IMG/VR virus record: IMGVR_UViG_3300010392_000311
Coordinates: 1-38,278 of that record
From: a virus
Reading direction: 5' to 3' (one strand)
Length of the DNA: 38,278 nt
The translations under genes were made by a program, and so were the position numbers. Positions 51 to 35,280 of this stretch are shown here, one piece after another (positions within the stretch are counted from its first letter, which is position 1; each line of letters starts with the position of its first letter). The notes under the pieces are model-generated. The model was not told the origin of the DNA, did no database searches, and saw nothing but the letters and a program-made list of their open reading frames with translations.

Positions 51-1720
<1,670 letters not shown>

Positions 1721-1724
<4 letters not shown>

Positions 1725-11891: not shown

Positions 11892-11915
11892 CACCCAAAA
11901 GTCACGCGCACAAAA

Positions 11916-11929
11916 ACAACCAAAGTTGT
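11916..11929. promoter_or_regulatory. Operator dyad 2 (ACAAC-N4-GTTGT)
   Basis: ACAACCAAAGTTGT repeats the arms and 4-bp spacing of operator 1. The centres are 47 bp apart. It ends 12 nt before the proposed repressor start at 11942, so it could serve autoregulation. Confidence 0.72.
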
Positions 11930-11941
11930 AGGTTGATGAGA

Positions 11942-19977: not shown

Positions 19978-20519
19978 TGCGGTGCCCCGGTGTTCGATCC
20001 GCCAGACTGCACGCCGCCATGCGTGTGCGATTTCAGGCTGATGCTATCGGCCACAACATCTGTGTCAGCGGTGACGGTGCCGGTAACATTCACGTCACCC
20101 GTGATCTGCACATTGCCGGTGATTTCCACATCGCCGGGGGCCACGATTTGCAGGCCGTCATCAGTCAGCGTGATGACCAGACCGGCAGCGCCGTGGATCT
20201 GATGGGTGGCATCATTCGCCGGGGCGGGAAAGGCATTGGAATAGATCCCGCGCAGGATCACACCGCCTGCAATATCCCCTTCCGGGCACAGCAGTATAAC
20301 CTGTTCGCCTGCGCTGGGCGGGGTCCATGTGCGGAACGAACCCGCCCATTCCATCCAGGGCAGCGGCGGAGACAGCACATCACCCCCACGGAACACAGCC
20401 GTGGCGCTGCCCAGATCGACACTTTCAACAGTGCCGATGCGCAGTAAATCGCCAAGCTGGCCGGGGATATCGTCTTCATCCATTGGGGCAACATCGCGGG
20501 GGCGGGCGGGTGCATCCAT
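19974..20519 (-). CDS. V: Baseplate spike protein V
   Basis: The spike of P2-like phages. An OB-like N-terminal region includes LLRIGTVESVDL, then LSPPLPWMEWAGSFRTWTPP and GEQVILLCPEGD. A beta-helix-type stretch follows (VEITGNVQITGDVNVTGTV). The end SHTHGGVQSGGSNTGAP carries the HxH motif that binds iron at the tip. The start is uncertain: ATG 20519 (MDAPARPRD, 181 aa) or ATG 20483 (MDEDDIPGQ, 169 aa). The latter is favoured if transcription starts about 55 bp from the dyad centred at 20539, since 20519 would then be untranscribed. Confidence 0.88.
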   Translation of the reverse strand: MDAPARPRDVAPMDEDDIPGQLGDLLRIGTVESVDLGSATAVFRGGDVLSPPLPWMEWAGSFRTWTPPSAGEQVILLCPEGDIAGGVILRGIYSNAFPAPANDATHQIHGAAGLVITLTDDGLQIVAPGDVEITGNVQITGDVNVTGTVTADTDVVADSISLKSHTHGGVQSGGSNTGAPQ

Positions 20520-20528
20520 GCTGCGCGC

Positions 20529-20549
20529 TTGTGATGTGGTGCACCACAA
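20529..20549. promoter_or_regulatory. Late-activator dyad, copy 1 (V-W-F block)
   Basis: TTGTGATG-TGGT-GCACCACAA; 17 of 21 positions are shared with two other copies. It lies at the head of the V-W-FI-FII-E-T-U-D run, centred 56 bp upstream of the V start at 20483. The inverted half-sites are TTGTGRTG. It is proposed as the Ogr-like activator site. Confidence 0.72.
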
Positions 20550-20564
20550 GTGCGCAGCATGGCG

Positions 20565-20795
20565 TCATTCTGCCGGTGATTCCTGCGGGGGCGGGTTGGT
20601 GATCACGCCCAGCGCAATCTTCTGTTCAACGCCCTGCGCCACTTCATCCACGCGCGCCTGCGTTGCAGCTTTGTCATATGCGCCCTTGGAATTCAGGCAC
20701 GCATTCACATTGCGGCGATGCGTCACGCCATCATGGGTGAAGGTGACGGGCACGGTGCGGGTGTCCGCATCAAATTTGCCGATGGTGGTTTTCAT
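20565..20795 (-). CDS. Small tail-fibre-associated protein
   Basis: This 76-aa protein begins MKTTIGKFDADTRTVPVTFT and contains HDGVTHRRNVNACLNSKGAY. It looks like the small proteins that follow tail-fibre genes in alphaproteobacterial phages. The ATG at 20795 has GGAG 8 nt upstream and is preferred over a TTG two codons earlier. Function unknown. Confidence 0.7.
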   Translation of the reverse strand: MKTTIGKFDADTRTVPVTFTHDGVTHRRNVNACLNSKGAYDKAATQARVDEVAQGVEQKIALGVITNPPPQESPAE

Positions 20796-20797
20796 GG

Positions 20798-21205
20798 TCA
20801 ATTCTCCTGTCCTGATGGGGCGGTCTGGTTGGGTGCAATGGGCCAGACCACGGATGCCGGATCATCCGCCCACAATGCGGGTATGTCGCGCAGCTGCTGG
20901 CGATAGGTGGCCCATGCTTCCCGCTGGGAATCGGTAAACTGGATATCGGGCATCTGGCTGAAATCGGATGCGGCCAGCAGCCGGTCCCGTTCCCGCCGCA
21001 GACGTTCCATGATTTCTTCCTTGGGTGGCGGTGGCGGATCGGCGGCAATGGGGCGGCCATCATCCCCTGCCACAATCATCTTTCCCTGTGCCTGCTGGTT
21101 CAGCAGGTCTTCAAATTCCGCCATTGTCAGATCAACGGCATCAGCTGGCGGCGGAACGTCTGCCGCCTGATGGTAAAATCCGCCGGTCGATGGGCTGAAT
21201 TTCAT
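20798..21205 (-). CDS. Tail fibre assembly chaperone-like protein (G position)
   Basis: This 135-aa protein has an N-terminal MKFSPSTGGFYHQ, a Pro-rich middle (ADPPPPPKEE) and a C-terminal region with RERDRLLAASDFSQMPDI and REAWATYRQQLRDIPALWAD. That last segment is the conserved mark of phage tail fibre assembly chaperones. It follows the fibre gene H with AGAGGAAG upstream. It should help fold or trimerise the fibre. Confidence 0.78.
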   Translation of the reverse strand: MKFSPSTGGFYHQAADVPPPADAVDLTMAEFEDLLNQQAQGKMIVAGDDGRPIAADPPPPPKEEIMERLRRERDRLLAASDFSQMPDIQFTDSQREAWATYRQQLRDIPALWADDPASVVWPIAPNQTAPSGQEN

Positions 21206-21236
21206 GGTCGCTTCCTCTATCAGAACGGGTCAGGGA

Positions 21237-22823
21237 TCACCGCCCAAAGGCGATGTATTTGAAACTTGTGGTGGTGCTGCCGGAATTGATCACGCTGACG
21301 GATGTCAGCGAATTGCTGGTATCGTGAACGTCACCTTCCACATTGGTGGAAGTGCCGCCGCCTGATGCCAGGGCAAGTGCGCGCCCGGCATAGGCTTGCG
21401 CAAATGTGACCGATGCACTGGAATTGCCATTGCAGGAACCTGTGCCCATCTGGAAATACCAGGGCGTGCCGCCAATTTCGATGCGCAGCACCAATGCTGA
21501 TGCTGTATCCACCAGAATGGACAGGCCCTTTTGAAAATAGGATGCGTGCTGGCCATCCAGCAAATCCGCATCCAGACCGGAACCGGAACCATCATTACTG
21601 GGGTGGTAATAAGGGCTTCCCTGCTTTGCCACATCCGCGCTGGCACCGATATAAATTCCAGCTTCAAAATATGTTGTTGTGGGCGACCCATTGTCGCGCG
21701 TCATCACCTCGTTACCGTCAAACACGGTATTGACCCCATCATCCGGGCCAATCTGAAGGGCGTGAAGCGTGCTGGCGGCGGAAAGATCATCCGTTGCTGT
21801 CAGGCGCAGGCGCTGCATGATCACATCGCCCAGGCCCGAATAGTCCCCCGACAAGCGGCCATCAGGCAAAATTCCCGTGGCGTTGGCCAGATCACGGAAG
21901 AAACTGCCATGCTGGCCATCCAGCAAATCCGCATCAATGCCAGACCCGGAACCATCCACGGCCAGCAGTTTGGTCAGCACATCAGCATAATAGCTGCCCT
22001 GCTGGCCATCCAGCAAATCCGCATCCAGACCGGAACCTGCGCCATCCACCGTCAACAATTTGGCCAGCAGCGCAGCAGCCGTAACCAGATTGTCTATATA
22101 GGTTTTGGTGGCGGCATGGTTTGCCGCAGTGGGCGCGCCAGAAAGGGTCAACAGGCCCGTCATCACATCACCCGCCCTGTTTACAGGCGTGTATCCAAGG
22201 CGGGCGATAATATTGGCGTAGTAACCCCCATCCTGCCCATCCAGCAAATCCGCATCCAGACCGGAACCGGAACCATCTACGGCCAGCAGCCACGGCAAAA
22301 TCGCTGAAACGGCTGCTGCAACTGTCAAGGCGCGCACGGAATCAGTTCCCGCCTGTGCCTCTGCATTGGTGGTCAATTCAACCACGCCCTGGCGTTCTGT
22401 GGTGGCGGGCGGATTGGTGAAATTGGCATTGCCAAAGGTCAGCAGGGCGGCGGCAATATCGGCAAAGATGGCATCAATCGACAGTGCACCAATGCTCTGC
22501 ACTGTCTTTTCCAGAATGGGGTCGACCTGCCCATAAATGGCAAACATGGTGCCATCATCCAGATAGAGGGCAAATGACCGCAGAGAGTAAACGTCTGCGG
22601 TGCTATCCACCATATTGATGTGGATTGTATCATCCGCCACCACTTCACCGGCAACGCCAGCCACACGCTTGAATTCACCGGCCAGGGCAATGTCCGTTAC
22701 CGCAGGCACCACCGCCGTTTGCGACAGACCAACTTCGGTAATGGTCACCGGATCAGTGCCGGTGTTTTGCGCATTGACCAGGGCGGCCCGGCCCGCGTTG
22801 GTGACGGTAATATCCAATGGCAT
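21237..22823 (-). CDS. H: Tail fibre protein (P2 gpH-like)
   Basis: This 528-aa fibre probably determines host-surface binding. The N-terminal region (MPLDITVTNAGRAALVNAQN) is a baseplate-attachment module, and TTERQGVVELTTNAEAQAGT is the common fibre motif. Four repeats of SGSGLDADLLDGQ (one with AGSGL, one with SGSGID), most followed by aromatic SYY or SFF, alternate with linkers. The C-terminal ~130 residues differ and probably bind the receptor. It lies after J and I in standard order. Confidence 0.88.
   Translation of the reverse strand: MPLDITVTNAGRAALVNAQNTGTDPVTITEVGLSQTAVVPAVTDIALAGEFKRVAGVAGEVVADDTIHINMVDSTADVYSLRSFALYLDDGTMFAIYGQVDPILEKTVQSIGALSIDAIFADIAAALLTFGNANFTNPPATTERQGVVELTTNAEAQAGTDSVRALTVAAAVSAILPWLLAVDGSGSGLDADLLDGQDGGYYANIIARLGYTPVNRAGDVMTGLLTLSGAPTAANHAATKTYIDNLVTAAALLAKLLTVDGAGSGLDADLLDGQQGSYYADVLTKLLAVDGSGSGIDADLLDGQHGSFFRDLANATGILPDGRLSGDYSGLGDVIMQRLRLTATDDLSAASTLHALQIGPDDGVNTVFDGNEVMTRDNGSPTTTYFEAGIYIGASADVAKQGSPYYHPSNDGSGSGLDADLLDGQHASYFQKGLSILVDTASALVLRIEIGGTPWYFQMGTGSCNGNSSASVTFAQAYAGRALALASGGGTSTNVEGDVHDTSNSLTSVSVINSGSTTTSFKYIAFGR
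21549..22272 (-). repeat. Four intragenic DNA repeats in tail fibre gene
   Basis: A unit containing CCATCCAGCAAATCCGCATC on the plus strand occurs near 21553, 21917, 22007 and 22237, encoding LDADLLDGQ. Flanking bases vary. Such repeats could allow recombination that lengthens or shortens the fibre shaft. Confidence 0.8.
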
Positions 22824-22849
22824 CGGTCAGGCTCCGAAAAATAAATTGA

Positions 22850-23395
22850 TCATGCGGCAGCACCCCAGATGCGCGCCGCGACAACCGGACGGGCCACGGC
22901 GCGCAGGCCGACACGGGCACGGGCGGTCTGGGAAACTGTGAAGGTGAAATGGCTGCGCACCGGCTTTGTTCGGGCGACTTCCGATATGACCGCGTCGATA
23001 AATTCCTGTTCCGGCGCTTCGGCGTTTTCCCCACCCAGCGTCACAGTCAGGTCAAAGGTGTGCGGTGTACCGATCGGGTCTTGCTGGAACCATTCGCGCA
23101 CCACCACGCTGCCACCAAAACTGTCCACCACATCGATAACCGATTGGGCCGTTCCCTTGATCCTTTGAATTTCAATGGCGGTTGCCACGCGGGCACGGCG
23201 GATATGCAGGGGCCAATCGGCAGACCATTGATCGATCGACAATGCCCAGGCCAGCCAGGGCAGCAATTCTTCCGGGCAGGTTTGCGCAGACCACAGATCG
23301 CGATAGGGCGTATTGATTGCGCCGATCCGTGCGCCCAGCAGCTGTTCCAGCGCCAGTTCCATTTCGGTGGAATTGGGGGGCAGAAGCGTTGTCAT
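22850..23395 (-). CDS. I: Baseplate / tail protein I (P2 gpI-like)
   Basis: This 181-aa protein begins MTTLLPPNSTEMELALEQLL and contains CPEELLPWLAWALSIDQWS and GTAQSVIDVVDSFGGSVVV, diagnostic for the gpI family. It connects baseplate and fibre. It is coupled to J by ATGA overlap (23392-23395). Confidence 0.92.
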   Translation of the reverse strand: MTTLLPPNSTEMELALEQLLGARIGAINTPYRDLWSAQTCPEELLPWLAWALSIDQWSADWPLHIRRARVATAIEIQRIKGTAQSVIDVVDSFGGSVVVREWFQQDPIGTPHTFDLTVTLGGENAEAPEQEFIDAVISEVARTKPVRSHFTFTVSQTARARVGLRAVARPVVAARIWGAAA

Positions 23396-24294
23396 TCACC
23401 AACCCCGGCATCGGTCAGGGTGATACCCGTGCAATATCCGCATTGCTGGCGGGTCAGCACAATGTCTGCGGCGGGTGATACAAGGTCGATATTCTGTACA
23501 CCTTCCGGGTGCAGGGCGGCGATAATCCCGGCGCGCGTCACATCCCGCCCCAGGCGCAATGTGGTTTCCAGATGTTCATCAAGGCGTGATTGCGCCTCTG
23601 CCAGAACCAGCGCCCGATCGGGGCCGGAAAGGAAGGTCAGCGTGGCATCAATGGCAAAATTGACGATGGCGGCAGATTGCACGGTGACATTATCGGTCAG
23701 CGGGCGCACGCTGGTATCGGTCAGCCTGGCATCCACCGCCGCCAGCACCGGCGCGCTGGCCGTGCCATCACCCGTGCGGGAAAGCACGGTAACGGTCACA
23801 TCGCCGGGGGTGGGGCTGATGGCGGACGCATCCAGTACATCGGAATCCGCAGACAATGCGTGGAAGATATAGGCACCTTCCGGCCCAGCGACAGAAAACC
23901 CTTCCGGTGCCAGAACCATGCGCCGCCGCAGGCTGTCATCACTTTCATAGGTGGGGTCTATCCCATTGCCCGGATCGCCCGGATCAAGGATAAATCGTTC
24001 CACACCCACAATCGCGGCCAATGCATCCAGATCAGCGCCCATTGCATAGGCGGGCATCACCGCACGCGCCGCATCATTGGCGCGCTGGCGCAGCAACATT
24101 TCGCGGTAAGCGAACAGCTGGATCAGCTTCACCACAGGGTCACTTTCCAGCGCCGCATCAAAATCAGGGAAATAGGTCTGGAACTGGGCCAGTGCCTGCG
24201 CATAGATTGTTTCGAAGCTTAACGCTTCCACCACATCGGGCGCGGGCAAACGGGACAGATCGACCCCGGTAAAACTGTCTGATGCAATGGCCAT
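23392..24294 (-). CDS. J: Baseplate wedge protein J (P2 gpJ-like)
   Basis: This 300-aa baseplate wedge has LSRLPAPDVVEALSFETIYA near the start, LIQLFAYREMLLRQRANDA and MGADLDALAAIVGVER, the conserved J core. The ATG at 24294 gives the family length; an ATG at 24318 with an AAGGGGGG stretch upstream is the alternative. The late dyad centred at 24351 is 57 bp upstream of 24294. It heads the J-I-H-G unit. Confidence 0.92.
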   Translation of the reverse strand: MAIASDSFTGVDLSRLPAPDVVEALSFETIYAQALAQFQTYFPDFDAALESDPVVKLIQLFAYREMLLRQRANDAARAVMPAYAMGADLDALAAIVGVERFILDPGDPGNGIDPTYESDDSLRRRMVLAPEGFSVAGPEGAYIFHALSADSDVLDASAISPTPGDVTVTVLSRTGDGTASAPVLAAVDARLTDTSVRPLTDNVTVQSAAIVNFAIDATLTFLSGPDRALVLAEAQSRLDEHLETTLRLGRDVTRAGIIAALHPEGVQNIDLVSPAADIVLTRQQCGYCTGITLTDAGVGE

Positions 24295-24340
24295 GCGGCT
24301 GATGAAGCCGCGCCCCATGCTTTGTTGCACCCCCCCTTCC

Positions 24341-24361
24341 TTGTGATGCGGCGCACCACAA
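24341..24361. promoter_or_regulatory. Late-activator dyad, copy 2 (J / lysis divergent)
   Basis: TTGTGATG-CGGC-GCACCACAA lies between the leftward J operon and the rightward lysis cassette, so one site could activate both. It shares 17 of 21 positions with the other two copies. Confidence 0.72.
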
Positions 24362-24432
24362 ATTGCCGCACTGGCCCGCACGCATTGGCGCGCAATGGTG
24401 GGGCAAATTCAACCGGGATTGCGCGACATCAC

Positions 24433-24753
24433 ATGGACAGACTTTTTGAAGCGGCTGCTGCACATTTCTGGTGGATCATCGCCGGAATTTCCGGGCGGAT
24501 GCTGTTCCACACGCGAGAGGCGCAGGCCGGAAACCGCCGGTTCTGGGGGCGCGAATTGCCGTTTGAACTGCTGGTGGCACTGGGAATGGGCCTGATCGGA
24601 TATTCGCTGTGTTCGTGGTTCGAACTGGTTGGCCCGGTGGCCGCCGGGGTGATCAGCGCCGTTGCCTATCTGGGGCCGCGCGCCATCGACACGATGTTTG
24701 ACCGCGCACTGGAAGCTGGCGGCAATTTCTTTGGCAAGGGGAAGGGCAAGTGA
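24433..24753 (+). CDS. Putative holin (LydA-like phage holin)
   Basis: This 106-aa membrane protein has a hydrophobic N-terminus (AAAAHFWWIIAGISG), a polar segment (HTREAQAGNRRFWGRELPFE) and a hydrophobic C-terminal half (LLVALGMGLIGYSLCSWF, then VAAGVISAVAYLG). This arrangement fits LydA-type holins, which release or activate endolysin at the inner membrane. It is the first gene of the rightward lysis cassette, and its stop overlaps the endolysin GTG. Confidence 0.75.
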   Translation: MDRLFEAAAAHFWWIIAGISGRMLFHTREAQAGNRRFWGRELPFELLVALGMGLIGYSLCSWFELVGPVAAGVISAVAYLGPRAIDTMFDRALEAGGNFFGKGKGK

Positions 24754-25217
24754 CCAGGCTGACCCCGCATTTCCAACTGTCCGAATTCACCAGCAGCCAG
24801 ACTGCCCTGCGCCGTGGGCTGGACAATACGCCCCCGCCTGAAGTGATCGGCAATCTCAAGAATTTGTGTGAATATGTGCTGGAACCCGTGCGCAAACATT
24901 TTGGTGCGCCGGTGATTATCAGTTCCGGCTATCGTTCCCCGGCTGTCAATCGCGCAGTGCGTGGGTCTGCCAGCAGCCAGCATTGCATGGGGCAGGCCGC
25001 AGACTTTGAAATCCCCGGCATTTCCAATGTCGATATTGCGGAATGGATACGCGACTGGCTGACTTTCGATCAGCTGATCCTGGAATTCTATACGCCCGGC
25101 GTGCCAGACAGCGGGTGGGTCCATGTCAGCTGGCGAATGCCATTGCGCAGGCAGGCGTTGACTGCGGCACGCCTGGCGCGCGGGAAAACACAATATTTTG
25201 CCGGGATCGTGGCATGA
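24750..25217 (+). CDS. Peptidase M15 endolysin (D,D- or L,D-endopeptidase-like)
   Basis: This 155-aa enzyme begins LTPHFQLSEFTSSQTALRRG and has the M15A zinc ligands: His78 and Asp85 in SSQHCMGQAADFE and His125 in GWVHVSW. Such enzymes cleave peptide cross-links in murein. A GTG start at 24750 overlaps the holin stop. There is no signal peptide, so export should depend on the holin. It replaces the lysozyme-like K of classical P2. Confidence 0.87.
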   Translation: MTRLTPHFQLSEFTSSQTALRRGLDNTPPPEVIGNLKNLCEYVLEPVRKHFGAPVIISSGYRSPAVNRAVRGSASSQHCMGQAADFEIPGISNVDIAEWIRDWLTFDQLILEFYTPGVPDSGWVHVSWRMPLRRQALTAARLARGKTQYFAGIVA

Positions 25218-25540
25218 CGCGGGAAAGCCGCATCTCGCCCTTTGTGCGGCCTGCACTGCTGTTCACCGTGGCGATGGCCTGTTTCGGCGTGGCCTTTCTG
25301 GCCGGGGCCATTGAACTGGTAAAACCGGGCTTGGGCATCCGCTTTGGCAATGCGGTGACGCAGGTGATGCGCAACGTGCCCGATGGATATCTGCAATTGT
25401 TCGGCCTGATGTTTTCCACCTATGCGCTGGGAAAAAGCGGCGAACGCATTGTGAAGGCGCATTCCAGCGCCAAAAATGATCCGGCCAAATCGGACGGTGA
25501 CAATATTCTGGCCGCGCTGGACAAGGCGAAAGAACGATGA
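25214..25540 (+). CDS. Small membrane protein of lysis cassette (holin-like)
   Basis: This 108-aa protein has a clear transmembrane segment (ALLFTVAMACFGVAFLAGAI, about 13-32) and a second moderately hydrophobic region (YLQLFGLMFSTYALG). It ends with a polar Lys/Asp-rich tail. It resembles the membrane part of three-segment holins of alphaproteobacterial phages and gene transfer agents. Lying between endolysin and spanins, it may be a second holin or antiholin. ATGA overlaps occur at both ends. Confidence 0.68.
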   Translation: MTRESRISPFVRPALLFTVAMACFGVAFLAGAIELVKPGLGIRFGNAVTQVMRNVPDGYLQLFGLMFSTYALGKSGERIVKAHSSAKNDPAKSDGDNILAALDKAKER

Positions 25541-25911
25541 ACCCTGTGGCCATCTGGAACGCGCTGATCGGACTGCCGCGATGGGCGCATCTGCTGATGG
25601 GGGCGGTGGCGCTGGCCGGGGCGGCGCTGCTGTGGTTGCAGTTCCATGACCGTGGCGTGGTAAAAAAACATGAAGCCGGTGTTTCTGCCCAGGTGGCTGA
25701 AACCGTTACCCATGCCGATCGAACCGCCATTTCCGCTGATCAGGAACGCGCCAGACAGCGCGCCACCGACAGTGCCGAAACCAAGGGAGCCATTGCCAAT
25801 GCCCAAGCCAAGCACCCCGATGAAGTGCGCCGCGCTGCTGGCCCTGCCACCAATGCTGCTGCTGACAGCCTGCGGAAACGAACGGGTCAGGATCGCGGCC
25901 CCGCCCGCTGA
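25537..25911 (+). CDS. Rz: Rz-like inner-membrane spanin
   Basis: This 124-aa protein has a single N-terminal membrane anchor (AHLLMGAVALAGAALLWLQF, about 17-36) and a periplasmic Ala/Glu/Gln-rich helical domain (VAETVTHADRTAISADQERA). The Rz1 gene is nested in its 3' end in another frame, the classic architecture. It should bridge the two membranes for the last lysis step. Confidence 0.8.
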   Translation: MNPVAIWNALIGLPRWAHLLMGAVALAGAALLWLQFHDRGVVKKHEAGVSAQVAETVTHADRTAISADQERARQRATDSAETKGAIANAQAKHPDEVRRAAGPATNAAADSLRKRTGQDRGPAR

Positions 25912-26116
25912 ATGGACTGATCCCGTAACCTGGCCGGAAATCCCGGCAGGTGAAGCACTATGCGCTGATGAAGGTGGGGCGATGGAACCCTGCCTGTCTG
26001 ACCGGGAAACGGCGGGCCTGCTGGGCGCGCTGGGTGACGCGCTGGATGCAGCCAATGGCCAGCTGCTGAAGCTGAAAGACTGGTTCGTTGCGGCAGGCGC
26101 GGAACCGCAGGACTAA
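25820..26116 (+). CDS. Rz1: Rz1-like outer-membrane lipoprotein spanin
   Basis: This 98-aa lipoprotein starts inside Rz in a different frame: signal MKCAALLALPPMLLLTAC, with lipobox LTAC and Cys18 lipidated. The mature part has Pro-containing segments (APPAEWTDPVTWPEIP), as in Rz1 proteins, plus an unusually long C-terminal helical tail with two more Cys. The frame is open further upstream, but the lipobox fixes the start. Partner of Rz. Confidence 0.82.
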   Translation: MKCAALLALPPMLLLTACGNERVRIAAPPAEWTDPVTWPEIPAGEALCADEGGAMEPCLSDRETAGLLGALGDALDAANGQLLKLKDWFVAAGAEPQD

Positions 26117-26119
26117 ATT

Positions 26120-26461
26120 ATGCCCGCAACCTTCACCTTCCAACGCGGCGAACCCATCATCATTGACCTGGTGATTGATGATGCAGGCTCCATCGATCCC
26201 GTCAATGTGACGGTGGCGATGCGCCTGAAGAAAGGGACGCGTCCCCCGCCACAATCAGACCCTGCCATTGCCGAATTCGTTCTGGCCTATGTTCCCGCCA
26301 GCGGCAGTGACATGGCGTATTGGCGCGGCACCATTGCCGATTCATCGGCTATCGATCCGGGCGATTATGTTACCGATGCTGTGCTGTCACTGGATGATGC
26401 GGTGATCGCCATCACCGATCCGGTGCGGGTGCAGATACGCGGAAGCGTGACCCCGGCATGA
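26120..26461 (+). CDS. Hypothetical virion-associated protein
   Basis: This 113-aa beta-rich protein starts MPATFTFQRGEPIIIDLVID and contains YVPASGSDMAYWRGTIADSS and DPVRVQIRGSVTPA. The Ig-like strand pattern resembles small proteins near fibre genes. It overlaps the next gene as ATGA. No firm assignment. Confidence 0.65.
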   Translation: MPATFTFQRGEPIIIDLVIDDAGSIDPVNVTVAMRLKKGTRPPPQSDPAIAEFVLAYVPASGSDMAYWRGTIADSSAIDPGDYVTDAVLSLDDAVIAITDPVRVQIRGSVTPA

Positions 26462-26811
26462 GTGTGATGCAGCTTTCTTTCCGGCAGGGGCCGCCCCCCA
26501 TCGCCCTGTTCTGGCGCGGGCCGCAGCGCGGCGAATATCGCGCCATTCCGCGCGATGCGACCGGGGCCATCGCCGCCATTATCGGGCCGCGTGGTGCATC
26601 CGGGCCAGCAGGCAATGGCGCGGCGCATGATCAGACCTTCAGCGCCGCAGCCAGCTGGACGGTGAACCACAATCTGGGCCGCCGCCCTGCCGCCGTGCGG
26701 GTGCTGTCCGATGGCGGGATTGAGGTGATCGCAGAGATCATCGAAATTTCGACCAACCAACTGATTGTTCAATTTGCAGTGCCGCAATCTGGCCGCTGCG
26801 TGGTTTTATGA
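26458..26811 (+). CDS. Short collagen-motif fibre protein
   Basis: This 117-aa protein has a collagen-like GPRGASGPAGNG stretch (about 41-52) and a C-terminal module with WTVNHNLGRRPAAVRVLSDG and LIVQFAVPQSG. The same module type closes the next gene. It may be a short trimeric decoration or adaptor protein. Confidence 0.68.
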   Translation: MSVMQLSFRQGPPPIALFWRGPQRGEYRAIPRDATGAIAAIIGPRGASGPAGNGAAHDQTFSAAASWTVNHNLGRRPAAVRVLSDGGIEVIAEIIEISTNQLIVQFAVPQSGRCVVL

Positions 26812-26822
26812 AGAGGTGAAAC

Positions 26823-27614
26823 ATGGGTAAATCTGTTCTGTCCGATCTGGATTTCGGCAATTCGGCACGGGTCACAAACCTGCCAGAACCCGCCAATGCG
26901 CAGGATGCCGCGACCAAGAATTATGTTGACAGCGCGGTGGAAGGGATCGCGTGGAAGGACAGCGTGCGTGTGCATGCACAGGCCAATGTCAATCTGGCGG
27001 CACCGGGTGCGGCGATTGATGGCGTGAATATGGCGGTGAATGATCGCTTTTGCGCACCGGCGCAGACGGCCACAGAAGAAAACGGTATCTATATCTGGAA
27101 CGGGGCTGCGGTGCCCGCCACGCGGGCGGGTGATGCCAGCACCGCAGAGGAACTGGAACAGGCCGTGTTCACTGTGGAGGAAGGCACATCTGCCGGGGCG
27201 ACATTCCGCCAGACGGCGGTCAATTTCATTCTGGATACAGATCCTGTGGCCTTCACCAGTTTCGGCACAGCAGCTGGCGCAGCATCAGAAGGCAGCGCAG
27301 GCACCGCCGAACTGGCAACGCAGGCGGAAGTGGATACCGGAACGGATGATGCGCGCATCGTCACCCCGTTGAAGCTGGCCAATTGGGCAGGCCGCAAACG
27401 CAAGGCAACCGCCACCATTGGCGATGGTGCGGCGACCAGTTTCAACCTGGACCATAATTTCAGCAGCCGCGATGTGAGCGTGGAAGTTTACAAGAATTCG
27501 GGCAATTATGATTCCGTTCTGGTGGATGTGACCCGGCCAAGCGTGAACCGCGTGACATTGACCTTTGCCGCAGCACCGGCGCTGAATTCTTACAATGTGG
27601 TGGTGATCGGCTGA
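26823..27614 (+). CDS. Tail fibre-like protein
   Basis: This 263-aa protein begins MGKSVLSDLDFGNSARVTNL, with ANAQDAATKNYVDSAVEG, a very common phage fibre motif. The middle resembles virion surface modules (ENGIYIWNGAAVPATRAGD). The C-terminal module has FNLDHNFSSRDVSVEVYKNS and VTLTFAAAPALNSYNVVV. It is a second fibre-type protein besides H, transcribed with the lysis genes. It could be an additional receptor-binding protein. Confidence 0.78.
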   Translation: MGKSVLSDLDFGNSARVTNLPEPANAQDAATKNYVDSAVEGIAWKDSVRVHAQANVNLAAPGAAIDGVNMAVNDRFCAPAQTATEENGIYIWNGAAVPATRAGDASTAEELEQAVFTVEEGTSAGATFRQTAVNFILDTDPVAFTSFGTAAGAASEGSAGTAELATQAEVDTGTDDARIVTPLKLANWAGRKRKATATIGDGAATSFNLDHNFSSRDVSVEVYKNSGNYDSVLVDVTRPSVNRVTLTFAAAPALNSYNVVVIG

Positions 27615-27615
27615 T

Positions 27616-28185
27616 ATGGCCAGCCAGTTCCTGTTTCCCGATAGTCTGCTTTCACCTGGTGGGTGGACGGGGGATTACAGCGATCTGGACGAGGTTGCGG
27701 CATCCGATGCCGACTTTGTGTATTCAAAGGACAGGCCCAATGGTTCGGCCATCGAAATTGGTCTGTCCAACCCGGCCAGCACGCCGGGCGGTGGGTTGGT
27801 GACGCTGAATTACCGCCATGCCCAGGTGCAATCCGGGGTGATCGATGGCGGCGGTTCAGCAACCACTTTGGATGTCAGCCTGTACCAAGGTGGAACGCTG
27901 ATTGCATCCGATGTTCAACAGGCACCGGGCGGTGCTTGGGCAACGCGCAGCTGGCAATTTGATCCGGCGGCGGTGACAGACTGGACCGACCTGATATTCA
28001 TTGCGTCTGCGGATGGTGGTGGTGGCGGACCCAGCAGTCGGCGCGGCGTTGCATTGTCATGGATCAGGATGGAAATTCCCGGCGCAGAGACAATCTATAT
28101 AGGTGCAGCGGGGCAGGCCGCACGTTATCTGGGCGCGCGCGCTTCTGCCGATCTGTATCTGGGGGAAAAGGCCATCTGGCCCTGA
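27616..28185 (+). CDS. Putative virion adhesin / fibre tip protein
   Basis: This 189-aa beta-rich protein has a Gly-rich loop (ADGGGGGPSSRRG) and a C-terminus with repeating IYIGAAG, RYLGARA and LYLGEKAIW units. It starts 2 nt after the preceding stop, so the two are co-translated and probably assemble together. The repeats resemble short beta units seen at the ends of phage surface proteins. Exact function unknown. Confidence 0.65.
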   Translation: MASQFLFPDSLLSPGGWTGDYSDLDEVAASDADFVYSKDRPNGSAIEIGLSNPASTPGGGLVTLNYRHAQVQSGVIDGGGSATTLDVSLYQGGTLIASDVQQAPGGAWATRSWQFDPAAVTDWTDLIFIASADGGGGGPSSRRGVALSWIRMEIPGAETIYIGAAGQAARYLGARASADLYLGEKAIWP

Positions 28186-28198
28186 TCCTGCACCGCCA

Positions 28199-28879
28199 TC
28201 AATCGCCCGCCAGATGGGCGATCACTGTATCCAGCAGCTGCGATCTGTCCTTCGCCGTCATGCCCAGCAATTCGCGCCGTTCATATCGGGTTTCCCGTGC
28301 ATGGCGGGCTGGCCTGTCCCGCAGGCCGAACTGGTGAACAGATGCCACTGCGGCAACCCGCCCGGCAAAGCCAATCCATGCTTCATGATCGTTCTGGCCA
28401 GTGTGCAAAATGCCGCTGCGCCGGATCTTGCGAAACATGGCCCGGTCCCGCACGCGGCGGCGATTCCTGATCTTGCCGCCACCGGCATTGTCTTCTTCCG
28501 GGTCAACGCGCAGCCATTTGATCACCTTGTCAAATTCAAAGCTGCGCAATCCGCGCGCTTCCCGGTCATACCCGGTGAAGATTGGCCCCTGTTTCACCCA
28601 GCTTTTCATAAAGACCAGGCGCGGCGGTCCACTGCCGCCCGATGGATAGAGGAATTTGACCGCGTAATTGCCCGGTACAGGTTCCGTGGGTGGTTTGCGC
28701 GCGGCAAAGCCAGACCCATCCGGGTTGCGTTGCGCCGCGATGCGTTGCTGGTTGGACCGGCGCATGGTGGTGGCCACCTGCCGGAACAGGCGGCGGCGCG
28801 CGGGTGCATCCAGCGATTTCAGCATCCCGCCAACGAAACTTTCCAGTTCTGCCAGATCGCCAGTTTCGGCGCGGGCCAT
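28199..28879 (-). CDS. S: Tail completion protein S (P2 gpS-like)
   Basis: This 226-aa protein has LESFVGGMLKSLDAPARRRL and FRQVATTMRRSNQQRIAAQR near the start and HEAWIGFAGRVAAVASVHQF late, all hallmarks of the virion morphogenesis family. It is clearly longer than classical S, mainly through a basic middle (KIRNRRRVRDRAMFRKIRR). It is convergent with the fibre cassette, 13 nt apart. Confidence 0.9.
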   Translation of the reverse strand: MARAETGDLAELESFVGGMLKSLDAPARRRLFRQVATTMRRSNQQRIAAQRNPDGSGFAARKPPTEPVPGNYAVKFLYPSGGSGPPRLVFMKSWVKQGPIFTGYDREARGLRSFEFDKVIKWLRVDPEEDNAGGGKIRNRRRVRDRAMFRKIRRSGILHTGQNDHEAWIGFAGRVAAVASVHQFGLRDRPARHARETRYERRELLGMTAKDRSQLLDTVIAHLAGD

Positions 28880-28882
28880 GCC

Positions 28883-29386
28883 TTAACCCCCTTCGTACCC
28901 GGCCAGCAATTCCTTCAACGGGCCGCCGGGGGCGTAAATCTGGCGCAGCAGGGCCACGGGATCAGTCATGGGTTCCAGATCGGGCATGGGCGGTTCAGCG
29001 CGAAAGCTGGCCTGATAGCGGTCTGCATCATCGGCCAGAATGTCAATTGCCTCACTCAATGGCAGGGAAATCTGCACATCCACCGCCTGATTATCCACCG
29101 GGTCCACTTCAAAAGTAATGCCATCCACCCCGGTCTGATGGTTCTGGATCAATTCGCGCTGGTTGGCGCGTATCCACAGCGCCAGCGGCAGCATGATCTG
29201 GGCGGGGTCACCGCGATAATTCAGCAGCACAATGTCCACTGTGTATCGATATTCAAAGCCCAGATTGTCCCCATCGCGCAGGGCCAGCGTGCCCTTGGTC
29301 ACATACAGCGCCAGCGCATCTGGTTCGCGCGCCAGTTCGGGCAGGGCCGCGGTCAAATGGGTGCGCAGGCTGGCCGGTTTCTGCAT
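28883..29386 (-). CDS. R: Tail completion protein R (P2 gpR-like)
   Basis: This 167-aa protein starts MQKPASLRTHLTAALPELAR and contains DNLGFEYRYTVDIVLLNYRG, typical of gpR, which joins tail to head. It precedes S by 3 nt. Confidence 0.9.
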   Translation of the reverse strand: MQKPASLRTHLTAALPELAREPDALALYVTKGTLALRDGDNLGFEYRYTVDIVLLNYRGDPAQIMLPLALWIRANQRELIQNHQTGVDGITFEVDPVDNQAVDVQISLPLSEAIDILADDADRYQASFRAEPPMPDLEPMTDPVALLRQIYAPGGPLKELLAGYEGG

Positions 29387-29390
29387 CAGA

Positions 29391-29612
29391 TCAATCCCAC
29401 AGCTTTATGATATCGCGTTCCGGGGTGAATGCCTGTGGCAGAACGGGCAGGGTGATCACCTGCCCTTCCACCAGAATTGGCCCCTGATCGGCCAGATCAC
29501 GGTTCAGTTCCAATGCCTGTTCCACAATCCCTTCTGTCCGCCCCATCACGCGCCAGCACAGCGCATCCAGCGTTTCATTCTGGTGGGCAGTGGCGGTAAA
29601 GGTGGCGGCCAT
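29391..29612 (-). CDS. X: Tail protein X (LysM-like, P2 gpX-like)
   Basis: This 73-aa protein is LysM-like: DALCWRVMGRTEGIVEQAL, then NRDLADQGPILVEGQVITLP. It is usually found between L and the lysis genes in P2-like phages. It overlaps the L stop by one base at 29612. Confidence 0.9.
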   Translation of the reverse strand: MAATFTATAHQNETLDALCWRVMGRTEGIVEQALELNRDLADQGPILVEGQVITLPVLPQAFTPERDIIKLWD

Positions 29613-30088
29613 CAGATCAGTTCAACCGCAGTGCGGCCAACGCCCTTGATATCACGGATGGCATGGATGGCGTTACGGCGATGATCCTCTGCGCTCATGT
29701 CCAGCACTTCAGACCGGGTCTGGCCAGTGCCGGTGGCGGTCAAATCACCATGCGTTTCCCGCAAATCTGCCGTGGCGTAAGAATAGATGGCGCGCCGCCA
29801 CAGATGGACTAGGCGGCTTTCCCCGCCAATCTGATCGGCCGGCACATCTGCCAGCGCCGCATAGGTGGCCAGTTCCTGCGCCGCACGCCACAGGGCCAGA
29901 TCGCCATCCACGGCCAGAACCGCGCCCAGCAATGATTGTTTCACCCGATCATCAGGGATCAGCGTGCCGCCGATCCGCTGTGCATCGCGGAAATGGTTCA
30001 CATCCACATCGGGCCAGAACGGCCCGCAGGAAAGCACTGTGCCTGGCGCAGTGGCATCTGGGGTGGGGGAGGATATGAAGCCAGCCAT
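29612..30088 (-). CDS. L: Head completion protein L (P2 gpL-like)
   Basis: This 158-aa protein contains FWPDVDVNHFRDAQRIGGTL, LLGAVLAVDGDLALWRAAQE and VHLWRRAIYSYATADLRETH, the gpL pattern. It seals the filled head. Its start overlaps the upstream small gene as TGATG. Confidence 0.92.
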   Translation of the reverse strand: MAGFISSPTPDATAPGTVLSCGPFWPDVDVNHFRDAQRIGGTLIPDDRVKQSLLGAVLAVDGDLALWRAAQELATYAALADVPADQIGGESRLVHLWRRAIYSYATADLRETHGDLTATGTGQTRSEVLDMSAEDHRRNAIHAIRDIKGVGRTAVELI

Positions 30089-30276
30089 CAGCTATCCAGC
30101 CAGTACAGTTTCTGCTGTTCTGTCAGTTCGATAGCGTCATGGTCATCGAATGCAGCATAGCGGGTGTATCCGGGCGGCATTTTGGCGATGTTCACCTTGT
30201 CGATTTCCGTCAGTTCGATGGCGATAGGCTGGCCCGGTTCGACTTCGTACCATGTGCTTCCGACCTTCACCCGCAT
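30088..30276 (-). CDS. Small protein between M and L
   Basis: This 62-aa acidic protein begins MRVKVGSTWYEVEPGQPIAI and ends EQQKLYWLDS. The ATG at 30276 has a near-perfect AGGAGG 5 nt upstream, so it should be strongly translated. It has no counterpart in classical P2. The place in the operon suggests a minor head protein or a regulator of L by coupling. Confidence 0.75.
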   Translation of the reverse strand: MRVKVGSTWYEVEPGQPIAIELTEIDKVNIAKMPPGYTRYAAFDDHDAIELTEQQKLYWLDS

Positions 30277-30377
30277 TTGATCCTCCTGAAGAAAGTGGGG
30301 GGTGGGGATCGGGATCATCGGCGTGGGCGAACCTGCCTTGATCCGTCACCGCCCCCCGGCGCCGGTGGGCGAGCTGA

Positions 30378-31160
30378 TTATTCTTCTTCGTCCGTCACTT
30401 CGCCTTCCTGGGCGGAAGGCGGATTCTTGTTCATCCATGAAACCAGGCGTTCAATTTCCTTTTTCACGCCGATTTTCGGGGCCAGCGCCAATGCGCGGCG
30501 CAGCGATTCCAGCGCCTGTGTACGGGCATGGCGCTGGGCACCGGCCACGGCGGTTTCGCCTTTGTCAGCCTCGGCATCAGCTTCACGGATCAATTGCAGG
30601 CCAATGGCCTTGTGCAGTTTGGCGCGGGCCACATCGGGCATATCAAATGGTTCGGTCAGCTGGGCGGTGCGCAGCAATGTTTGCAGGTCATAATCCTGAT
30701 CCTGGCCAATCGCGGCAAGGGCCGCAGTGGCGATTTCTTCTGCCACCACGCAGGCGGGTGTTCGCTGGAACCGTTCGGGCATCCGCAGGCCAAAGCGCAA
30801 AACATGTTCGGCAATGTCCAGCGCAGTGACAGTGGCCCCGATATCGATGTGCCACAGCATGATGGTGGCCAGCAGTTCATCCTGCACCGCCTTGCCGGTT
30901 TCAGTCGCGGCTTCCAGCGTGGCGTTCACATGTGGCTGATAGCGGGCGATCATATCCCGTTTCGCCGCAATCTTGGCTTCGGTGGACTGGATATCGCGCA
31001 GGCGGGCCATATCTTCCCCCAGCGCGGCCAGCAGCAATTCATATTCGGTGGCCTCTGCGCCGGAATGCTGGCGATCAGGTGCGACATCACCAGAAGAACC
31101 ACTTTCAACTGCCTTTGCAGCAAGCTTTTTCTGGCGATGGCGTAGAGCGGGACTGAACAT
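30378..31160 (-). CDS. M: Terminase small subunit / endonuclease (P2 gpM-like)
   Basis: This 260-aa protein begins MFSPALRHRQKKLAAKAVES and contains YELLLAALGEDMARLRDIQS then KRDMIARYQPHVNATL, typical of gpM, and LLATIMLWHIDIGATVTALD. It works with P to cut cos and package DNA. GGAGGCAATTCG precedes the ATG, a strong ribosome site. A 59-nt gap separates it from the next small-gene frame. Confidence 0.92.
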   Translation of the reverse strand: MFSPALRHRQKKLAAKAVESGSSGDVAPDRQHSGAEATEYELLLAALGEDMARLRDIQSTEAKIAAKRDMIARYQPHVNATLEAATETGKAVQDELLATIMLWHIDIGATVTALDIAEHVLRFGLRMPERFQRTPACVVAEEIATAALAAIGQDQDYDLQTLLRTAQLTEPFDMPDVARAKLHKAIGLQLIREADAEADKGETAVAGAQRHARTQALESLRRALALAPKIGVKKEIERLVSWMNKNPPSAQEGEVTDEEE

Positions 31161-31312
31161 CGAATTGCCTCCTGAATGGTGCCCGCTCTATCCGGCGGCG
31201 GGCGCTGGCGCTGGCTGATGCGACTGCTTCAGTCGCGGCCTCCCAGCTATGCGTCTGGCTCTTGCCTCACCGCCCCGGATGGCAGGGTCAGGCCGTCAAC
31301 GCCTCTCAAGTA
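31161..31312 (-). other. 152-nt intergenic spacer between N and M with hairpin
   Basis: No gene is seen here. A perfect 7-bp stem GCGACTG-CTT-CAGTCGC lies at 31220-31236. No T-run follows. It may limit read-through after the abundant capsid message; the strong M ribosome site occupies the end. Confidence 0.5.
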
Positions 31313-32428
31313 TTACGGGGCCGGGCGGGCAGCAGCTGCGCCAAGCGTGATGTTTTCGACCAGGACAACAAGTTCGTAGTCTTCAACCACGTAATCCATG
31401 TTGACGCTTTCGTAATTGGCGATCCGGTCATAATCGGGTTCATCCACCAGACGGCGGCGGCGCGTGCCTTCCTGATTGTAGATCGACAGATTATCGAGCC
31501 GGGTGATCAGAACGGCATTGGCCGGGAAGTATGGCACCTGCACAGCGGGCAGGCCGCCCAGCGTTTTGGTGGAACGCAGGATGCGGTCGGTTGCTTCCAC
31601 TTCCGTGGCCGTTGCGCCAGTGTTCTGGGCGATGCTGAAAAGCTTGTCATCCACCAGATCGGCACCGACGATCACAACCAGTTCAGTGTCGCGGCGGTGC
31701 CATTCAGGCATCATCCGCTTGGCATCCAGAACCAGCGCATCCAGCGACGAATAATCGGCTTCGCCGGTGATGGCATTGTCCAGATTGGCGTCATACAGCG
31801 TGGCATCCGCCTTGACGAAAATCGCCTTCAGCGCATCATCATTGCTGCCATCGCTGTGGACGGTCAGATTGCCATCATCGAAAACCTGGGCGGGGGCCGT
31901 GGTGCGAATTTTATGCAGCCAGCCTTCAGCCAAATCCTGCAACAGCGGATAGGTGACGATATCGGTGGTGGCGGCGCGACTTGTGCCGTTCCAGCCAGCC
32001 ATGATCAGATCGCGGCCCTGCTGTTTCAGGATCGCCATTGCCAGCAGGCGTTCAAAATCGGGCTTGTGCCGCCATGCATCCAGCTTGTCATACCGGCGCG
32101 ACCAGTCGAAATTGGTCTGCAAGCAATTGTAAGTGTTGGATTCGCCATTATCGGTCGGATCGGACGGATTGCGGCGCGTGCCGCCAGATGTATCCGTGCG
32201 CGATGCGATAGGGCGGGTGCTTTCCAGCGCCAGCGTCTGGCCGCTTTGCTGCGGCACATTTTCAATGTTGATCAGGCCAAGGAATTCAATGGTTTCCTTC
32301 AGCTTTTCTTCAAAACGCTGTTCAACCACCGGATCGACGGCGAAAGTCTGGGCGGGGACTTCGATCGAGTTCAACAGGGCGATGGTCGAAACATAGCTGT
32401 TGAACAGAACGCGGGTTTTGGGATTCAT
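31313..32428 (-). CDS. N: Major capsid protein (P2 gpN-like)
   Basis: This 371-aa protein begins MNPKTRVLFNSYVSTIALLN, with LINIENVPQQSGQTLALEST, WRHKPDFERLLAMAILKQQG and ALVLDAKRMMPEWHRRDTEL, all hallmarks of P2 gpN (HK97 fold). It is processed after assembly with O in P2; the N-terminal site here is not obvious. GpN-like length. Confidence 0.93.
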   Translation of the reverse strand: MNPKTRVLFNSYVSTIALLNSIEVPAQTFAVDPVVEQRFEEKLKETIEFLGLINIENVPQQSGQTLALESTRPIASRTDTSGGTRRNPSDPTDNGESNTYNCLQTNFDWSRRYDKLDAWRHKPDFERLLAMAILKQQGRDLIMAGWNGTSRAATTDIVTYPLLQDLAEGWLHKIRTTAPAQVFDDGNLTVHSDGSNDDALKAIFVKADATLYDANLDNAITGEADYSSLDALVLDAKRMMPEWHRRDTELVVIVGADLVDDKLFSIAQNTGATATEVEATDRILRSTKTLGGLPAVQVPYFPANAVLITRLDNLSIYNQEGTRRRRLVDEPDYDRIANYESVNMDYVVEDYELVVLVENITLGAAAARPAP

Positions 32429-32474
32429 GGGATTGTTCCTTCAGCGGATATCGATTGCGCGCGGATCGTGATGG

Positions 32475-33314
32475 TCAGAATTCGGCCTTGATGGCGTCAC
32501 CGCCGCCAGTGCCGGTGGGGCGGGTGCGGTAACTGTCAGGCTTCGTTTTTTCGATGGCAGCAGACAGGGTGGAAACGTCTTCAGTCAGCTTGCCGATCTT
32601 GGCCGCTGTGGCATCATTCGATGCCTTGAAGGCGGCTTCCAGCTTGCCCAGACCTTCAGCCATGACAGTGGCAAATTGTGCCATCTGGTCAGTCTGCGCC
32701 GGTTCCGCAGGTGTGGTGGCTGGGGCGGCAGGTTGGGCCGTTTCCGGCTTTGCCATGTCGGTGAAGAATTTCTTCATCGCGGCGAAGGCACCTGCCGCCT
32801 CGCTGGTTGCGGCTGCTTCCTCTTCAAATTCGACCGCGAAGGGATCGGACAGCGCAATCAGGTTTTCCTTGCGCGCTTCATCGCGCGTGCTGAATTGCAG
32901 GATTTCAGTGCCCAGGCTGGCCGGGCTGTCAGTCAGCGCCATGCCCACCAGGTAAGCCTTGCCGGTATTGGCAAAGTTGGGATTGATTTCGACGCTGGAA
33001 AAAACCTTCTGATCAGCCTTTGTCAGTTCTTTCGCCTGATCGTTCACGTCAAAGCTGGCATAGAGGGCCAGGCGTTTTTCATCCTTGCCGCCAATCTTCA
33101 GCGTGATTTCTTCCGTCTTCACCGCATCGATCGATCCATAGGAATTGAAGGGCGGTTCGGGCGAATAGCCGCGCAGATGTTCGCAATTGATGCGCGCGGT
33201 ATAGGTTGCGCGGTCATAGGTGGCGGCCATCTGTTCGATATGGGCGCGTTCGATCTTGCGACCGTCAACGGTATCGCCTTCAACGGCAACGCGGAAGAAC
33301 TTGGATTTGGCCAT
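32475..33314 (-). CDS. O: Capsid scaffold and protease (P2 gpO-like)
   Basis: This 279-aa protein combines an N-terminal serine protease with a C-terminal scaffold. Candidate catalytic residues are Asp17, His46 (INCEHLRG) and Ser106/107 (KVFSSVEINP), matching the Asp-His-Ser order in P2 gpO. LVGMALTDSPASLGTEILQF is conserved. The C-terminal half is Ala/Glu-rich and helical. First gene of the leftward O-N-M-L-X-R-S unit, with AGGAG 10 nt upstream. Confidence 0.93.
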   Translation of the reverse strand: MAKSKFFRVAVEGDTVDGRKIERAHIEQMAATYDRATYTARINCEHLRGYSPEPPFNSYGSIDAVKTEEITLKIGGKDEKRLALYASFDVNDQAKELTKADQKVFSSVEINPNFANTGKAYLVGMALTDSPASLGTEILQFSTRDEARKENLIALSDPFAVEFEEEAAATSEAAGAFAAMKKFFTDMAKPETAQPAAPATTPAEPAQTDQMAQFATVMAEGLGKLEAAFKASNDATAAKIGKLTEDVSTLSAAIEKTKPDSYRTRPTGTGGGDAIKAEF

Positions 33315-33399
33315 GACAGGCAGCTCCTGGGATCAGTTTCGGGTGAGCGTCTGGCACCCATTCCGCACTGAACCGGCCCATTCGGGCAACGCCACCCGC

Positions 33400-33420
33400 T
33401 TGTGATGCCGTGCACCACAA
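33400..33420. promoter_or_regulatory. Late-activator dyad, copy 3 (O / P divergent)
   Basis: TTGTGATG-CCGT-GCACCACAA lies between leftward O and rightward P. In P2 the divergent P and O promoters occupy the same place. It is centred at 33410, 59 bp before a possible P start at 33469 and 74 bp before 33484. Confidence 0.74.
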
Positions 33421-33483: not shown

Positions 33484-35280
33484 ATGCCTGTTCCCATCCC
33501 ATATGACGCGCGAAGGATTGCGCGCGGGTATTACTGGCGGGGCTGGGGCGTCACCGAACTGGCGCGGGAAATGGGGCTGAAACCCACCACGGTGCAAAGC
33601 TGGAAAGAACGCGACGGGTGGGATGATGACCCGGTAATCCGCCGCGTGGAAGACAGCCTGGAAATGCGGATGAACCAGCTGATCTTCAAGGAAAGCAAGA
33701 GCGGCCATGATTTCAAGGAAATTGACCTGCTGGGCCGCCAGATCGAACGTATGGCCCGCGTGCGCCGGTACGAGGCACCGGGCGGCCATGAAGGCGATCT
33801 GAACCCCAAGGTCGCCAATCGCAACGCCGCACCCAAAAAGAAGGCAGCGAAAAACCTGATCACGCCGGATGAAGTGATCCAGCTGCGCGATGCGCTGAAG
33901 GATCTGTGTTTCGGATATCAGGATACATGGTGGCAGAACGTATCGCGCCGCACACGTTTCCTGCTGAAAAGCCGCCAGATCGGCGCGACATTCTACTTCG
34001 CGCTGGAAGCATTGGTGCGCGGGCTGGAAACCGGCAACAACCAGATATTCATTTCCGCCAGCAGGGCGCAGGCGAATAATTTCCGCAGCTATATCATCCA
34101 GTTCGTGTTCAAGGTGCTGGGCAAGGATTTGAAGGGCGAACATCTGACCATCCAGCGCGGGGAAAGCGAGGATGGGGAGGCGCTGGAACCCTTCACCATG
34201 TATTTCCTGGGCACCAATTATCGCACAGCCCAAAGCTATCACGGTGATGTCTATATCGATGAAGTTTTCTGGATTTACGGCTTTGACCAGCTGAACAAGG
34301 TCGCATCTGCGATGGCTTCGCAGAAACGGTATCACAAAACGTATTTTTCAACGCCCAGCACCATCAACCATGAAGCCTATCCCATGTGGAGCGGCGAACG
34401 GTTCAACAAACGCCGCCCGAAGAACGAACAGATCAAGATCGATATCGGGCACAAGGTGCTGAAGGATGGCAAATCCGGCGCTGACCGCATCTGGCGGCAC
34501 ATCGTCAACATTCACGATGCAGAGGAACAGGGCTGTGACCTGTTCGACATTGAAGAACTGAAATTTGAATATTCAGTCGATGAATTCAACAATCTGTTCC
34601 TGTGTGACTTTGTCGATGACAGCCAGTCCAGCTTCCCCTTGGCATTGGTGCAGCCATGCATGGTTGATAGCTGGGATGTGTGGAAGGATTTCCAGCCATA
34701 CGCACTGCGCCCCTTTGCCGATGGCGAAGTGTGGATTGGTTATGACCCCGCCGAAAGCGAAGATGGCGACAATGCCAGCTGCGTTGTGGTGGCTCCGCCA
34801 GCGGGTGGCAAGGGTAAATTCCGGGTGCTGGAAAAGCTGACATGGAAGGGCAAGGATTACGAAGCGCAGGCCGCTGAAATCCGCAAGCTGACCCGCAAAT
34901 ATCGCGTCACCGAAATTGCGATTGATGGCACCGGCATGGGATCGGCAGTCTATCAGCTGGTGTCCAAATTCTTCCCGATGGCGCGGCGGATCGATTATTC
35001 ACCGTTGGTCAAGACGCAGATGGTGCTGAAGGCCAAGAACGTCTTCAGCAAAAGGCGGATCGAATTCGATTCCGGGTGGACCGATCTGGCCCGCGCCCTG
35101 ATGTCGATCCATCCCCAGCTGACCAAGGGTCAAAAGCATATCACCTATGTCGCGCGGCGCAGTGCGGAAACCGGCCACGGCGATCTGGCCTGGGCGCTGC
35201 TGCACGCGCTTTTCTGTGAACCAATGGATGCCACTGATGGTGGCGGCATCCGCAAATCCAGTGTGGAGGTCAACCGATGA
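33484..35280 (+). CDS. P: Terminase large subunit ATPase (P2 gpP-like)
   Basis: This ~598-aa motor protein has an N-terminal HTH (YYWRGWGVTELAREMGLKPT, then TVQSWKERDGW), a Walker A-like LLKSRQIGAT (about 160-169), Walker B VYIDEVFWIYG, and a nuclease domain with WIGYDPAESEDGDNASCVV and EIAIDGTGMGSAVYQLV. The length matches P2 P. Start uncertain (33484 or 33469; neither has a strong ribosome site). It overlaps Q by ATGA. Confidence 0.93.
   Translation: MPVPIPYDARRIARGYYWRGWGVTELAREMGLKPTTVQSWKERDGWDDDPVIRRVEDSLEMRMNQLIFKESKSGHDFKEIDLLGRQIERMARVRRYEAPGGHEGDLNPKVANRNAAPKKKAAKNLITPDEVIQLRDALKDLCFGYQDTWWQNVSRRTRFLLKSRQIGATFYFALEALVRGLETGNNQIFISASRAQANNFRSYIIQFVFKVLGKDLKGEHLTIQRGESEDGEALEPFTMYFLGTNYRTAQSYHGDVYIDEVFWIYGFDQLNKVASAMASQKRYHKTYFSTPSTINHEAYPMWSGERFNKRRPKNEQIKIDIGHKVLKDGKSGADRIWRHIVNIHDAEEQGCDLFDIEELKFEYSVDEFNNLFLCDFVDDSQSSFPLALVQPCMVDSWDVWKDFQPYALRPFADGEVWIGYDPAESEDGDNASCVVVAPPAGGKGKFRVLEKLTWKGKDYEAQAAEIRKLTRKYRVTEIAIDGTGMGSAVYQLVSKFFPMARRIDYSPLVKTQMVLKAKNVFSKRRIEFDSGWTDLARALMSIHPQLTKGQKHITYVARRSAETGHGDLAWALLHALFCEPMDATDGGGIRKSSVEVNR

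Follow-up and report, generated by a model that had tools for sequence, protein, structure and literature searches.

The role of the Ogr/B activators is established in phages P2 and 186 (PMC3931495, PMC5694545). In the P2 record, one activator site lies midway between the O and P start sites, which are 111 bp apart (55.5 bp on either side), and V transcription starts at the A of the V ATG, the gene's first base. Stenotrophomonas phage Smp131 has one site shared by P and O, a J site, and a V site, with a consensus given as TGT-N12-ACA (PMC3931495). The Ralstonia phages RSA1 and RSY1, which also encode an Ogr homologue, carry TGTTGT-N13-ACAACA before their late units, centred -50 to -90 from the start codons (PMC5694545).

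The DNA analysed here (the window), 38,278 bases long, is a virus record from IMG/VR rather than part of a host chromosome and, judged from its sequence, is a P2-like phage of sphingomonad bacteria. PHROG and Pfam matches identify a large serine integrase, a CI-like repressor, a YdaS-like regulator, Ogr, and a primase, followed in order by D, T, E, FII, FI, W, V, tail-fibre genes, I, J, lysis genes, S, R, L, M, N, O, P, and Q. The large serine integrase (84-3455) stands in place of the P2 tyrosine integrase and is adjoined by two DNA methyltransferases. A lipoprotein with Lipoprotein_Ltp repeats (12646-13065; PHROG "superinfection exclusion") adjoins the repressor, and a BRO-N domain protein is found at the right end (36268-36978). 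Listed here are the regulatory genes and the gene that heads each late unit:

10742..11095, minus strand: Ogr/Delta-like C4 zinc-finger protein (PF04606, phrog_603)
11553-11855: YdaS-like protein
11876-12613: CI-like repressor
13081-13437: helix-turn-helix (HTH) protein
19974..20483, minus strand: V, baseplate assembly (phrog_9992 and alignment with relatives)
23392..24294, minus strand: J, baseplate wedge, heading J-I-H-G (phrog_4226/phrog_6)
24433..24753, plus strand: holin, heading the lysis unit (PF16083; lysis genes phrog_126 and phrog_894)
32475..33314, minus strand: O, scaffold/protease, heading O-N-M-L...R-S (phrog_73)
33484..35280, plus strand: P, large terminase, heading P-Q (phrog_3746)

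By homology, the late units thus begin with V (ATG 20483, minus strand), J (24294, minus), the holin (24433, plus), O (33314, minus), and P (33484, plus). V heads the unit V-W-FI-FII-E-T-U-D, and the holin is followed by the endolysin, from 24750. The start codon of P is most likely ATG 33484 rather than the dyad-abutting ATG 33421, since the terminase homology begins downstream of the latter. A preliminary description of this DNA had reported three copies of a 21-bp dyad among these genes, and all three are present where it placed them:

20529..20549, minus strand: dyad copy 1, TTGTGGTGCACCACATCACAA on the minus strand, centre 20539, for the V-W-FI...D unit
24341..24361, no strand assigned: dyad copy 2, TTGTGATGCGGCGCACCACAA, centre 24351, common to J-I-H-G (minus) and the lysis unit (plus)
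33400..33420, no strand assigned: dyad copy 3, TTGTGATGCCGTGCACCACAA, centre 33410, common to O...S (minus) and P-Q (plus)

In correction of the N4 form given before, the symmetric form is TTGTGRTG-N5-CAYCACAA, with ends TTGT-N13-ACAA. Likewise, 18 of the 21 positions are invariant instead of the 17 counted before, and variation among the three copies is confined to positions 9, 10, and 12. A pattern search of the whole window with up to three mismatches returned six strand-matches, which correspond to three places because the site is a dyad, and the absence of a fourth copy was confirmed at this threshold. None of 100 dinucleotide-preserving shuffles reached the observed six matches (mean 0.29, maximum 2). 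TTGT-N13-ACAA is found ahead of every late unit, with one shared site between the divergent O and P units, and the copies cover, as had been proposed, the heads of all five units assigned by homology (P-Q, O to S, J-I-H-G, lysis, and V-W-FI to D).

We consider it very probable, on sequence evidence, that an Ogr-family zinc-finger activator encoded by the phage itself binds the three dyads, and that these make up its late regulon. The Ogr homologue noted at 10742-11095 is borne out by a PF04606 match of 59 bits (cut-off 26.3) and by the C4 finger spacing of the 117-aa protein, CX2C-X22-CX4C; its gene belongs to the leftward early operon, where it is flanked by those of the YdaS-like regulator and the primase. 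PF04606 is present in 31 of 40 viral records (window included) and in six of seven host genomes. The nine viral records without it are all fragmentary (6 to 29 kb), and every record of at least 29,992 bases has one. The case for Ogr as the binder rests on this presence throughout these phages, together with the established role of Ogr/B in P2 and 186 (PMC3931495, PMC5694545). In the proposed mechanism, CI would repress the leftward early operon containing ogr; once the operon is on after induction, Ogr would be made and accumulate, and would bind each dyad, probably as a dimer. Bound Ogr would then recruit the host RNA polymerase from about -55, with transcription starting about 55-56 bp from the dyad centre. 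Being symmetric, one site could serve the two divergent units at each of the O/P and J/lysis junctions, and three sites would thereby drive five units. Beyond the zinc finger, sphingomonad Ogr proteins have in common a PGxDFGQM(S/T)IF-like stretch at the C-terminal end, a candidate RNA polymerase contact.

The geometry of the promoters was examined by aligning sequences on the dyad centre; gene starts and core elements served to infer the start sites. The element at the -35 position, centre +21..+23, is TTG/TNG: all 19 O promoters have TTG there, and 80 of 86 promoters have G at +23. A -10-like element ends in a T near +48 to +49 (at +49 in 63/86 promoters). This footprint spacing places the start at about +55 to +56 from the dyad centre. 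In the window, the elements are:

33387..33389, minus strand: TTG of the O promoter, -35 position, at centre +21..+23
24372..24374, plus strand: TGG of the lysis promoter, -35 position, at centre +21..+23, from direct reading of the aligned sequences
24394-24399, plus strand: AATGGT of the lysis promoter, -10 position, from direct reading of the aligned sequences

A scan for the sigma-70 consensus gave no excess over shuffles, and thus speaks neither for nor against the core-promoter reading. The distance from the dyad centre to the start codon is 56 bp for V and 57 bp for J; copy 3 has its centre 96 bp upstream of O and, on the other side, 74 bp upstream of P. We infer that the V ATG (20483) lies at the transcription start; a leader is probably absent or very short in the V and J messages, as in the annotation of P2 V. 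Overall, a dyad lies about 55 bp before each inferred late start, with one site per late-unit head.

This geometry also bears on the possibility that the dyads are operators of the CI-like repressor, the YdaS-like protein, or the HTH protein, silencing late genes in the lysogen. The phage does encode three HTH-type regulators, and dyads of about 21 bp are common targets of helix-turn-helix proteins. However, the dyads are outside the core promoter, separated from the inferred starts downstream by a near-constant distance of about 55 bp. This is the position of an activator, and the P2 and 186 records annotate their activator sites at the equivalent place. Moreover, no dyad is found near the CI or YdaS genes, whereas Ogr is found throughout the relatives. 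We therefore regard silencing by one of these regulators as unlikely.

The V copy forms the core of a near-perfect 45-bp inverted repeat (20517-20561) directly downstream of the stop codon of an upstream minus-strand ORF (20565-20801), with an RNA fold of -41.4 kcal/mol (z -5.6). This repeat may act as a terminator or attenuator coupled to the V promoter. Such a fold would suit a reading of the repeats as inter-unit hairpins (terminators or RNA elements) rather than protein-binding sites, which is nevertheless very improbable: the extended stem is not general in the relatives and is absent at the J and P copies of the window, no T-tract terminator was called at the copies, and two copies lie between divergent promoters, where a terminator is not needed. 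The V hairpin was accordingly rejected as a general, terminator-based explanation.

Relatives of P were found in seven bacterial genomes, all from sphingomonads save Asticcacaulis, and the motif search covered whole genomes of 2.9-3.9 Mb. All four motif matches in the Sphingobium genome and all three in the Altererythrobacter genome are inside the prophage. The Croceicoccus prophage contains three sites (two exact, one with one mismatch), and three matches with one mismatch each lie outside it, compared to a reversed-pattern background of two. The prophage sites are located at the P/O, J, and V starts, and the prophages bear Ogr. Many copies away from phage genes had been named as an outcome that would count against the regulon; instead, host genomes contain few copies of the motif, clustered in the prophage. 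Dyad-binding regulators are numerous in Alphaproteobacterial hosts, but a host transcription factor exploited by the phage is an extremely unlikely binder, given the concentration of the motif in the prophage, with other matches having one mismatch or being near background, the near absence of matching sites at host promoters, and the variation of half-sites from phage to phage. The Sphingobium prophage (G044) carries a fourth dyad exactly 56 bp before an ORF that is followed by endolysin and Rz-like genes. Together with the TGG and AATGGT elements of the window itself, this copy supports a lysis unit that belongs to the putative regulon.

Variability of the dyad became apparent in a wider sample of J relatives from viral contigs and prophages (31 phages), in which a blind search was made for a dyad, 17 to 24 in length, that the upstream regions of V, J, and P have in common. 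A score of at least 7/8 half-site positions was reached jointly in the V, J, and P regions of 20 of the 31 phages, compared to none of the 31 for control regions upstream of W, I, and Q and one in 93 for shuffled regions. Half-sites differ by 0.89 per 16 bases within a phage vs. 5.06 between phages (permutation p = 0.0005; shared descent not removed). They are phage-specific: TTGTGRTG in the group of the window, TTGTAGAA or TTGTAGAG in a large group, and TTGTAACC/G, TTGTGTCG, TTGTCAGG, and others elsewhere. A few phages have even dyads, either of the TTTGGACAG type (20-24 bp) or GTTCTG-N12-CAGAAC, and one phage (G012) has an extra copy 56 bp before an ORF. The blind search gave no clear dyad in the Ogr-bearing relatives G003, G016, G017, G018, and G020, a point against the Ogr-regulon reading. 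A scan of IMG/VR with a relaxed motif was set aside as evidence, as it yielded one site per stretch among the matches listed and many chance matches are expected with such a loose pattern.

Several individual phages deserve mention. In G010 and G011 (L231-L234), even TTTGGAYAG-type dyads occur with an Ogr whose second zinc pair is CX5C, not CX4C, so that dyad spacing and finger spacing are altered together. GTTCTG-N12-CAGAAC precedes V and P in G031, G033, and G035 (L263-L266, L279-L280), where V-W-J are contiguous, as in P2. Three related phages have a degenerate extra dyad of the TTGGCGAAACGCTTTCTACAA type about 1.4-1.5 kb past ogr (G026:1885, G034:36398, and G039:23865).

Mantel tests were used to compare half-site distances with protein distances. 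The correlation with Ogr distance is significant (r = 0.46) and persists after correction for most other proteins. That with the tail-sheath protein, however, is higher (r = 0.65), indicating that shared descent explains much of the signal and that Ogr is not singled out. The partial correlation for Ogr is 0.22 given the sheath protein (p = 0.017) and 0.15 given terminase P (p = 0.059). We therefore dropped the Mantel correlation as proof of Ogr binding; these co-variation statistics agree with Ogr as the putative binder, short of proof. Half-site distance does not follow J-protein distance (r = 0.11), so that the dyad ahead of J is a property of the phage rather than of the J module. One phage (G003, L126) has a J 71% identical to that of the window, lacks a matching dyad ahead of it, and encodes an Ogr only 40% identical; on the basis of this pattern, J modules seem to move without their dyad.

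Nearly all computational tests thus agree with the Ogr regulon proposed in the preliminary description, including the clustering in host genomes, the dyads of relatives, the 55.5-bp geometry, and the distribution of PF04606. For P2-like sphingomonad phages, this would amount to a clean and complete late regulon of three sites, five units, and one activator. Across the survey, the sequence of the dyad is re-set phage by phage, and its position and the gene content are largely fixed; this wider pattern, in which numerous Ogr phages each have a half-site of their own while the positions stay fixed, is the part worth pursuing. Tentatively, and with a chance that we put somewhat below even, Ogr-family fingers may have diversified into many mutually exclusive DNA specificities, with the dyad-Ogr pairing being a readable recognition code and a source of orthogonal activators. 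The half-sites behind this idea are TTGTGRTG, TTGTAGAA, TTGTAGAG, TTGTAACG, TTGTGTCG, TTGTCAGG, TTTGGACAG, and GTTCTG, with odd N13 or even N12 spacing. If it holds, the dyad set of each phage and its own Ogr would yield a recognition code and orthogonal phage activators. As no solved protein related to this Ogr came up in a phmmer search, paired Ogr/dyad sets would be a practical route to understanding how the finger reads DNA, and they could show whether co-resident P2-like prophages cross-activate late genes.

Compared to known systems, the putative late regulon is a lineage-specific version of the Ogr system, of modest novelty and with a new half-site. It resembles the Ogr/B-dependent late promoters of P2 and 186 in having a C4 zinc-finger activator and sites centred about 55 bp before the start and, as in P2, one site is common to the divergent O and P. 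The P2/186 sites, TGT-N12-CCA (TGT-N12-CAA at PV), are weakly symmetric, whereas the window phage has a near-perfect odd dyad of 21 bp, TTGT-N13-ACAA, in which the P2 spacing TGT-N12-ACA is not found; the gene order also differs, with J-I-H-G apart from V-W. The P2 and 186 sites were taken from their annotation, and a blind dyad search in Wphi, P2, PSP3, 186, KL3, FLC5, Acica, Smp131, and ENT90 gave no clean shared dyad; the only phage with one in that search was Pseudomonas phage Dobby, in which N13 dyads of the TTGTAG type precede V, FI, and O. The promoter layout of the window phage is that of Smp131, which lacks a separate lysis unit divergent from J and has its lysis genes within the O unit. 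N13 had been put forward as a departure from P2; the spacing is indeed present, but its novelty is ruled out by RSA1 and RSY1 (PMC5694545), so that the spacing distinguishes sub-types without being a defining feature of the family at large. Relative to RSA1 and RSY1, only the inner half-site (GRTG in the window) is specific here, and the host group differs as well. The closest Ogr proteins, and equal or nearly equal half-sites at the same gene starts, are found in the sphingomonad prophages G040, G041, G043, G044, and G046 (hosts: Aurantiacibacter, Croceicoccus, Altererythrobacter, Sphingobium, and a Sphingomonadales MAG), which show slight half-site drift (TTGTKRTG, TTGTGGTK) and, in G044, the additional copy for lysis.
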